Shown here one piece after another: positions 12,474 through 15,024 of a stretch of DNA of 64,000 nucleotides. This DNA comes from Aggregicoccus sp. 17bor-14. Its GTDB lineage: Bacteria > Myxococcota > Myxococcia > Myxococcales > Myxococcaceae. The notes under the pieces were generated by a model. The model did no database searches. It was not told where the DNA came from and was given only the letters and a program-made list of their open reading frames with translations. The stretch spans positions 310,001 to 374,000 of the forward strand of contig NZ_VJZZ01000002.1 in assembly GCF_009659535.1 (NCBI RefSeq), given 5' to 3'. The number at the start of each line of letters is the position of its first letter. The stretch's first letter is position 1. Made by a program: the position numbers and the translations under genes.

Positions 12474-13241
12474 TCACGCGATGGGCAGGGTGTGGGTGAC
12501 CAGGCCCTCGCCCTCGCGCCACAGGTGCAGCTGCAGCGCCGGCGGCTCGGGGACCATGGTGAGCGAGCCCGCGGGGCGCAGGTCCAGCGCCGCCTGCAGC
12601 ATCGTGCTCGGGCAGGTGCCCGCGAGCGTCCCCGCGAAGCGCCGCACCACCGCGCGGTGCACGTGCCCGCACAGCACCCGCTCCACCTGCGGGTGGCGCT
12701 GCAGGAGCGTGGCGAGCGCGCCCGCGCCCTCGAGCCCCATCGCATCCAGCACCCGCATGCCGGTGGCGAAGGGCGGGTGGTGCAGCGCCACCAGGGTGGG
12801 CCGCGCGGGCTCTTCCTTCAGCTGGGCCTCGAGCCACGCGAGCCGCGCGTCGCACAGCTGTCCTCCGTGCTGTCCCTCGACGAGCGTGTCCAGCGCGAGC
12901 AGGCGCAGCGGGCCGAGGTCGACCGCGTAGTGCAGGAAGCCCTGCGGCGGGAGGTAGCCGCGGGGCGCGAAGGCGCGGCGCAGCGGCTCGCGCCGGTCGT
13001 GGTTTCCCGGCAGCACGTAGAGGGGTGCATGGAGGGGACGCAGCAGCGCGAGCAGCCGCGCGTACTCCTGCTCCGTGCCCTCGTTGACCAGGTCTCCCGT
13101 GCACAGTACCGCGTCCGGCGCGGGGTCGAGGCGGTTCAGGTGCGCCACCGCGCGCGCGAGGTGCGCGGCCGAGCCGTAGCGCAGGTCCGCCGCGCTGCCG
13201 GGCGCGCAGATGTGCAGGTCGCTGAGCTGGGCGAGGAGCAT
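12474..13241 (-). CDS. Calcineurin-like metallophosphoesterase, CpdA/GpdQ class
   Basis: A 255-residue dinuclear metal phosphodiesterase. All family metal motifs are present in order: QLSDLHI (D-x-H), CTGDLVNEG (GD), LPGNHDRRE (GNHD), ALHHPPF (H) and CGHVHRAVV (GHxH). The length and the SDLHI start match cyclic-AMP phosphodiesterase CpdA and the phospholipid/glycerophosphodiesterase GpdQ, so it probably hydrolyses a cyclic nucleotide or phosphodiester in the cytoplasm. The ATG at 13241 places the first metal motif at residues 6-11, as usual in the family. It is the last gene before a gene-free block with repeats. Confidence 0.88.
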   Translation of the reverse strand: MLLAQLSDLHICAPGSAADLRYGSAAHLARAVAHLNRLDPAPDAVLCTGDLVNEGTEQEYARLLALLRPLHAPLYVLPGNHDRREPLRRAFAPRGYLPPQGFLHYAVDLGPLRLLALDTLVEGQHGGQLCDARLAWLEAQLKEEPARPTLVALHHPPFATGMRVLDAMGLEGAGALATLLQRHPQVERVLCGHVHRAVVRRFAGTLAGTCPSTMLQAALDLRPAGSLTMVPEPPALQLHLWREGEGLVTHTLPIA

Positions 13242-13524
13242 GCGGAGACCTCCGGAGCGCCACGGTTCGACGCTCCGACAGCAGCGCATCCGCGCGCTCG
13301 GGGCGCAAGGGCCATTGCGGTGTGCGCGCGACGGGCCACTGCGCAGGATCGCGCCGGCGTGGTGGAGCGGGGGTCGCGGCTTCGTCGAGGCGGGTGTCGC
13401 CCGCTCACCTCGCAGCGATCAGCGCTCGAAGCGCCGGGCATGTCTCGAGGTCGCGCGTCTGCCGAGTGGCTGCGTGGGCGCGCTGGGAGGAGCACGCACG
13501 TCGCTCGCGCTCGGATGAAGTCCC

Positions 13525-13992
13525 GGACGGGACGGGCTCTTTCGCCTGAGCCCAGCGCGGAGGGGCGTCGGCCTGCGCGACGCTCCGGGGGCGCACGCTG
13601 GCGAAGCAGGGTGCGCCCGCCCTTTCCCCCCCCCAGGGCGGGGCGACGCGCTGGACGAAATGTTCCGTCCACGCCCGCCGCACCCCGCTCCGGGTGTGCG
13701 CGAGCCCCCTCGTCCGGCTCTCCGCTGCGCTCACGGCGCGCGCGCTCGGGAGGCGCTCGGCCGGACGGAACATTTCGTCCACGGCCTCTGGTCCGGAGGG
13801 GAGCACCCCTCCCGGGCGCAGGTCGGTGCGGTGCTGAATACAAACCTCGGGACTTTCGAAATCTCCCGAGGTTTGTCGTTAGCTCCGCGCAGCACCTCGC
13901 CCGACACCCCCTCCCTCCCGCGCATCCCCGGAGCGCCGCGCAGGGCAGCGCCCGTACGCGCTCGGCGCAAACGACGGGAGCCCGTCCCGTCC
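13525..13992. repeat. Gene-free block bounded by a 15-bp inverted repeat and holding nested palindromes
   Basis: The 843 bp between 13242 and 14084 have no credible gene. Within them GGACGGGACGGGCTC (13525-13539) is repeated as its exact reverse complement at 13978-13992. Inside lie an 18-bp sequence GGACGAAATGTTCCGTCC (13653-13670) with an exact inverted copy at 13763-13780, and a perfect 13-bp stem hairpin at 13840-13876. No target-site duplication is seen at the outer ends and no transposase is present. Nature unknown: a non-autonomous element or a regulatory/structural DNA region are both possible. Confidence 0.6.
13840..13876. repeat. Perfect 13-bp stem hairpin or palindrome
   Basis: ACAAACCTCGGGA (13840-13852) and TCCCGAGGTTTGT (13864-13876) are exact reverse complements around an 11-nt loop CTTTCGAAATC. 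The base composition is AT-richer than its surroundings. It could be a protein-binding palindrome or a transcribed hairpin; no T-tract follows. Confidence 0.7.
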
Positions 13993-14084
13993 TGGCTCCT
14001 CCACAGAGCCGATGCGCGCGGGGCACAGCGGGACAGCTTCGTCCCCCCAGAGGGAGAGTGGACAGCCGCGCCTCATGAACAGCG

Positions 14085-14984
14085 CTACGCAGAGATGGGC
14101 TGCACGTCGTCCGCGAGCTCGCGGCGCACCACCGGCTCGGGGCGGTGCACGCGCGAGACGAGGCACGCCGCGCTACCGCCCGCGAGGTGGAACTGGTCGA
14201 GCTTCACGCGCACCGGCTTGCGCCCCAGCGCACGCAGCAGCTTCTCCACGTACGGCGCCTGCGCGCCCACCAGCACGCGCTCGCCCACCTCGACGAGGTT
14301 GAGGCCGAAGCCCAGCGCCTCCTCGCGCGGCACGTGCAGCACGCGGCTGACGCCCTCGGTGCGCGCGAGCTGCGCGAGCGCCCCGGGCGTGAAGGCCTCG
14401 GGGCACACCAGCGCGGTGCCGTCCGAGAGCACGGTGAGCGCGGTGTCCAGGTGGTACAGGTGCGGGTCCCTCAGCTCGAGCGGCGTCACCGGCGCATCGA
14501 GGAAGCGCTCGAGCATCGGCGCCGCGCTCGCGCTCGAGCGCTGCCCGTGGCCCAGCAGCGCGCCGCGCGCCCCGGGCAGCATCGCGAGGTCTCCGCCCTC
14601 GAAGGGCGCGGGAGGCGGGCTGCAGATCTCGAAGCCCTGCCGGTCGAACACCTGCGCGCGCGCCCGCTGCTCGCTGCGCCGCTCGCCGTACAGCATGGAG
14701 GCGAGCAGCGCGCGCCGGCGCCCACCGCGCTCGTGCAGCAGCGCGTTGTCCTTGGAGAAGACCGAGTCGAAGGCGCCGTGCACGAAGGGCAGCTCGAGCA
14801 GGCCCGCTCCCGCCTCGAGCAGCGCGCGGCGCAGCGCGCGGTGCTGGCGGCACGCGCGCCTCCAGTCGACCGCGCCCACCTTCATGTGCGGGTTGATGGA
14901 CCAGGCGACCTGATAGGCGCAATCGCGTGAGCGTGTATGGGTCTTGTCACACCTGAGGGCGCTGAGGGCGAAGGTCGCGGGCAT
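14085..14984 (-). CDS. Amidinotransferase-fold hydrolase (DDAH/arginine deiminase-related)
   Basis: About 299 residues of the pentein (amidinotransferase) superfamily, which acts on guanidino groups such as arginine or methylarginine. Key features are AYQVAWSINPHM near the N-terminus (family INPxM), FSKDNALL, FEGGDLAML (acidic residue), YHLDTALTVL (catalytic His) and GGSAACLVSRVHR with the nucleophilic Cys near the C-terminus. All catalytic positions are present, so it is likely active. The ATG at 14984 is used; an ATG at 15050 would overlap the divergent leader. Divergent from a diiron-oxidase-like gene 80 bp away, which suggests shared control. Exact substrate unknown. Confidence 0.8.
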   Translation of the reverse strand: MPATFALSALRCDKTHTRSRDCAYQVAWSINPHMKVGAVDWRRACRQHRALRRALLEAGAGLLELPFVHGAFDSVFSKDNALLHERGGRRRALLASMLYGERRSEQRARAQVFDRQGFEICSPPPAPFEGGDLAMLPGARGALLGHGQRSSASAAPMLERFLDAPVTPLELRDPHLYHLDTALTVLSDGTALVCPEAFTPGALAQLARTEGVSRVLHVPREEALGFGLNLVEVGERVLVGAQAPYVEKLLRALGRKPVRVKLDQFHLAGGSAACLVSRVHRPEPVVRRELADDVQPISA

Positions 14985-15024
14985 CACGTGGCGAAACTCC
15001 AGAGACGTTCCCATCCTTGTACTC

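Follow-up and report, generated by a model that had tools for sequence, protein, structure and literature searches.

What kind of sequence is a gene-free block of nested inverted repeats that interrupts an otherwise densely coding region? The block lies at positions 13525-13992 of the window, the 64,000-nucleotide stretch of Aggregicoccus sp. 17bor-14 DNA that was analyzed here. An earlier note had proposed that it might be a non-autonomous mobile element, a protein-binding or chromosome-structuring site, or a structured RNA.

A gene-free block built of nested inverted repeats

The inverted repeats reported for the block were recovered from the sequence (Table 1). The outer pair is exact over 15 bp and the palindrome of the H2 module has the 13-bp stem described for it; the inner pair is likewise exact, although its length is 19 bp rather than 18 bp. 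The palindromes are indeed richer in AT than their surroundings, with a GC content of 0.49–0.53 compared to 0.74 for the window and 0.74 for the element. In 1000 dinucleotide shuffles of 13515-14002, exact inverted repeats of at least 18 bp occurred in none, of at least 15 bp in one and of at least 13 bp in 16, and three exact repeats of at least 13 bp were never found together (0/1000). Folded as RNA, the block has z-scores of −12.0 on the plus strand and −10.3 on the minus strand.

The 15-bp outer repeat is the mere core of a longer arm, as 13522-13597 and 13919-13995 pair at 77–94%. With both arms delimited by homology, the window copy spans approximately 13495-14020. It is housed in an 843-bp gap bordered at 13241 and 14085 by genes, called by codon score, that both lie on the minus strand. 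Only chance-looking open frames cross the element, and we take this copy to be non-coding. A scan of the window against Rfam returned nothing at gathering score, and a tRNA search found none. One human lncRNA model that appeared under an E-value threshold, scoring 22.9 bits against a gathering score of 70, was taken as a chance match.

Table 1. Features of the window copy and its flanking genes (window coordinates).
Feature	Position	Strand	Evidence
T arm, distal to H2; holds 15-bp repeat 13525-13539	13495-13601	+	Model R1, 79.0 bits, E 7.6e-13 (arm in R1 training set)
T' arm, adjoining H2; holds 13978-13992	13915-14020	-	Model R1, 94.8 bits, E 3.7e-16 (arm in R1 training set)
H1 palindrome, first copy (GGACGAAATGTTCCGTCC inside)	13652-13670	-	19-bp exact inverted repeat with 13763-13781; H1 profile match
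H1 palindrome, second copy, inverted (GGACGGAACATTTCGTCC inside)	13763-13781	+	Exact inverted repeat; H1 profile
G hairpin (GGAGGGG/CCCCTCC); adjoins E in E-carrying copies	13793-13815	.	Motif recurs in other copies
Direct-repeat motif, ~16-18 bp	13813-13830	+	Single without F..E; flanks F..E-G on both sides in L026, L031
H2 hairpin module; stem 13840-13852/13864-13876 (13 bp), 11-nt loop	13826-13906	+	H2 profile, 18-copy alignment, compensatory changes
Left flanking gene, calcineurin-like phosphoesterase, 5' end towards element	12474-13241	-	Pfam Metallophos 1.1e-21
Right flanking gene, dimethylargininase/arginine dihydrolase-like, 3' end towards element	14085-15014	-	Pfam DDAH 2e-06; NCBIfam below cut-off

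About 38 copies in a single genome

A block that was unique, not conserved and without a transcript would, according to the earlier note, probably have been chance or degenerate sequence. The block is not unique: the genome that carries the window holds approximately 38 copies. BLAST of the block against this genome gave 140 matches at E ≤ 1, and a search with R1, an arm model built from 37 arms, gave 69 arms at E ≤ 0.1, of which the 60 at E ≤ 2.1e-4 resolve into 38 elements. At 21 loci a plus-strand arm is followed within 1.3 kb by a minus-strand arm, each at 30 bits or more, so that terminal inverted repeats stand at both ends; some other loci have a single arm only.

In the searches outside this genome the element was almost never found. 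Among 96 genomes of the same family, searched with R1 under stricter filters than those used for the home genome, only the home genome matched, save for a partial match in one other (G139, 36.8 bits, E 9.8e-4); the 95 others thus held no T arms beyond that one borderline match. BLAST against 40 relatives found one match outside the home genome, a weak one of 50 bits (G027). A 22-base H2 pattern had no matches in genome_contigs and IMG/VR, where records of the home genome are possibly excluded. The block did not match plasmid or phage records at E 1e-5, and on this ground an origin from a plasmid or phage was ruled out. In a literature search whose coverage mostly excluded subscription journals, no account of such an element was found. 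Averaged over alignment columns, identity among the arms is 72%, and the copies are therefore old, with no recent movement shown.

Constant order, variable content

The copies are 0.3–1 kb long, with arms of approximately 105 bp, and they share an order of modules while differing in content: T, then some of D, H1, F..E and G, then H2 and T'. In the window copy the modules present are T, H1, H1', G, H2 and T'. D is a hairpin with GCACGCGCGTGC, and in about eight copies the right end continues into REP-like CCCTCTCCC..GGGAGAGGG. A direct repeat of the GGCAGGTCNGTGCG type (~16 bp) is present as two copies bracketing F..E-G in L026 and L031, and as a single motif in six copies without F..E-G (L025, L027, L030, L033, L036 and L037). 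This is as expected if the block was lost or gained between the repeats. At one locus (L022:2320-2877), a 185-aa ORF sits between modules of one T element; it has no family match and, judged by eye, a possible signal peptide.

The H1 palindrome as an insertion target

Eight contig ends of the assembly run from one multicopy IS into H1. The 8-mers adjacent to the IS are GAACATTT, GAACACTT twice and GAACGTTT at the four ends on one side, and an identical set at the four ends on the other. These are four insertions of the IS into H1, with a target duplication of at least 8 bp that is centered on the palindrome; the duplication could reach 10 bp because the tips of the IS repeat the flanking bases. 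Breaks in the assembly at these eight contig ends are explained by this IS seated in the H1 palindrome.

The readable assembly contains only the ends of this IS, which probably belongs to the IS4 family. On one side it encodes the last 37 residues of a protein, which weakly match the C-terminus of the NCBIfam model transpos_IS4_3 (12 bits, E 0.076), and a comparison of the C-terminus with plasmids gave seven weak matches, four of them annotated as IS4. A comparable habit is on record for REPs, which are described as targets of five IS families, among them the IS4-family element ISRm22 with nine copies, all in REPs (PMC1525189).

H1-like palindromes are concentrated within the elements. Across 28 loci, 12 were found within element spans (13.9 kb) and none outside them (112 kb), and both of the H1-like palindromes in the window lie within this element. 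In 222 kb sampled from contigs without T arms, they occurred only on one small contig, C28 (two, at L181:8140-8493).

The E/F module and the ends of an IS30-family transposon

When up to two mismatches are allowed, a 20-mer of the E/F module, CCCCCGACATCTCAGAACAG, is found at 26 places, 19 of them exact, and its reversed control at none. A related 21-base pattern is present in 19 of 195 genomes, all of the same family. It also turned up in named genomes, in 43 stretches that come for the most part from records of Myxococcus and Pyxidicoccus. In relatives it is usually one arm of a hairpin of ~55 bp. At one of these loci (L122), the pattern bounds 1291 bp with an ORF for an IS30-family transposase (NCBIfam transpos_IS30, 167.9 bits, E 3.6e-49; Pfam HTH_38) that is interrupted by an in-frame stop. 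E/F is thus an IS30-type end and matches the repeat that terminates an IS30-family transposon in relatives. In the home genome one broken IS30 copy and no intact gene were found, with no E-like ends within that locus at up to four mismatches.

Several arrangements of E arms were seen in passing. Three Myxococcus-group loci (L120, L121 and L125) have paired E arms ~0.8–0.9 kb apart with no evident transposase between them, and these pairs may represent mobilized cargo; in L120 a 244-aa ORF without a Pfam or NCBIfam match lies between the arms. L123 (G131) has a tandem row of five E arms spaced ~148 bp, with an inverted arm after it. The E pattern also matched one IMG/VR stretch (L119). A Myxococcus-type motif is carried by BNCN01 records, L273 among them, whose title is Comamonas sp. 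KCTC 72670; they are probably misnamed.

The H2 hairpin covaries and the terminal arms do not

In an 18-copy alignment, the H2 stem has 10 double-change cells compared to 3.8 expected, a number reached in 0 of 500 shuffles, and its covariation score was likewise reached in 0 of 500; related sequences can beat such shuffles without structure, though slid controls were lower. The compensatory changes include G-U pairs. This supports H2 as a hairpin that is kept by compensatory changes.

The arms behave differently. For the 17 elements with both arms aligned (alignment A1, which holds the stronger arms), the complementarity of T and T' was 0.707 within elements and 0.720 between elements, with 4709 of 5000 permutations equaling or exceeding the observed value. 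The arms do not covary, which suggests that they are conserved as sequence and not as a stem, as would be expected of ends recognized by a protein. Of the structured RNA that had been proposed, the H2 hairpin stands, whereas its closure by an outer stem does not, and an RNA closed by T was ruled out.

A mosaic that was probably mobilized in trans

On balance we favor a reading of the element as an intergenic repeat of mosaic build, rich in palindromes and closest to a BIME or a composite MITE. Of the proposals in the earlier note, a non-autonomous mobile element fares best: the ~38 copies, paired arms, modular interior and occurrence in one genome among those searched speak for it, while neither a T transposase nor a firm target duplication was found. 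Mobility was probably conferred in trans. The T arms would be transposon ends moved by a putative transposase encoded elsewhere, and the interior may have grown by nested insertion and shrunk by recombination between the short direct repeats that flank F..E-G. No transposase with T ends was seen in the T loci read from the home genome. For target-site duplication, 22 pairs were compared in three windows, and the mean observed was reached by 20, 1 and 80 of 400 permutations, which makes a duplication only suggestive. The ends of the elements are fuzzy. Synteny gave no clean empty site. In one relative (G118) the gene for the methyltransferase is almost next to that for the dimethylargininase, but the gene for the phosphoesterase did not turn up there either. 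If the element is such a mosaic, it is an intergenic repeat built as a nest, with terminal arms around palindromes that derive from at least two transposon families or serve them as targets.

Distribution over the genome and alternative explanations

The placement of the copies bears on what else they might be. At 30 loci the flanking genes were convergent in 15 cases, codirectional in 10 and divergent in five. In a background sample made up of the window and ten 20-kb samples, 8 of 105 gaps of at least 30 bp and 32 of 190 adjacent gene pairs were convergent. The orientation count omits loci at contig ends (L023, L041, L044, L047-L051 and L056) as well as L057 and L059, which have no T arm; the arm of L039 is weak. 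Where there was no strong second arm, the span was set by eye (L039, L043, L045, L046, L052, L053, L058 and L136). The bias towards convergent genes could arise because insertions are tolerated in such gaps or because the elements act where transcripts end; under the former, the elements would be nests parked where insertions harm least.

The 38 elements lie on 16 contigs, and ten other contigs longer than 40 kb (3.03 Mb) are empty, a result that none of 20000 simulations equaled. With the contig-end copies removed, the remaining 30 elements gave 2/20000 for chi-square and 0/20000 for empty bases. The element-free contigs, which have no strong T arm, are C1, C4, C8, C9, C10, C12, C15, C20, C22 and C26. 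A parS-like cluster is located on an element-bearing contig, C14, and the only dif-like match (three mismatches) on the element-free C1. Six loci were placed on a complete relative using 80 20-kb samples of G113 (covering 0 to 7.45 of 9.43 Mb); some placements conflict, and no simple origin or terminus pattern emerged.

One alternative is a chromosome-structuring or protein-binding array. The H1-like palindromes and H2 would bind a putative nucleoid protein or topoisomerase in the gaps between convergent genes, at which positive supercoils come together, and selection would keep the elements. The convergent-gene enrichment, the very uneven spread over contigs, the contrasting contigs of the parS-like and dif-like sites, the confinement of H1-like palindromes to elements among the T loci checked and the preservation of H2 through compensatory changes are all consistent with it. 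However, arms occur in just 1 of 96 family genomes, module content varies strongly between copies and the positions of the six placed loci are not clearly tied to origin or terminus, and we consider such an array unlikely. A broader version, improbable in our estimation, is that the elements mark or organize one large part of the chromosome, as palindrome arrays between convergent genes that are absent from ~44% of the assembly, are bound by a putative protein and offer transposons safe, nested landing sites. If this were true, selfish spread would act together with selection for the site.

The position of copies beside gene ends, between convergent genes, would also suit a transcribed structure such as a bidirectional terminator or a 3'-end stabilizer, and both the strong folding and the covariation of H2, G-U pairs included, point the same way. 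Yet a consensus scan of the window copy found no intrinsic-terminator-like site, the outer stem lacks covariation, Rfam gave no match at gathering score and 5 of the 30 copies lie between divergent genes. We regard a role of this kind as a poor fit and do not expect it to hold.

Dispersed structured DNA derived from a retron (msDNA-like) or a group II intron is suggested by the long, nested inverted repeats and by the myxobacterium-like genome that carries them, and msDNA-like repeats occur in Nannocystis; nevertheless, the outer stem is not maintained and the Rfam result applies here too, making this origin highly improbable. Chance or degenerate sequence is refuted by the shuffles together with the ~38 copies and retains virtually no credibility.

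Relation to known repeats

The mosaic repeat that we favor can be set beside four kinds of known element. Like a MITE, it is multicopy (38 elements), short, non-coding, intergenic and restricted to a lineage, with paired terminal repeats. It differs in that its interior is assembled as a mosaic from other elements, and in that the search yielded neither a parent transposon with T ends nor a firm target duplication.

REP units bear a GTAG or CGTC tag and are linked to a RAYT (Y1) transposase. The element shares with BIMEs and REPs its intergenic position, its build as a mosaic of palindromic motifs and its use as an IS target. Unlike them, it has terminal arms of ~105 bp, a length of 0.3–1 kb and about 38 copies, where REPs are reported usually to exceed 100 per genome (PMC2817692). 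In addition, its pieces are unrelated palindromes and not one REP repeated.

E/F links the element to the IS30-family transposon of the Myxococcus group, which also occurs as a solo hairpin of 55 bp: the module is the terminal repeat of that transposon (the 21-bp pattern). Here, in contrast, E/F is an optional module within a T element, in a genome where no intact IS30 gene was found.

Finally, IS621 and IS1397 are IS elements that target palindromes. The multicopy IS in the center of H1, probably of the IS4 family, resembles them and ISRm22 in this respect, with the difference that the target here is itself a module of a larger repeat.
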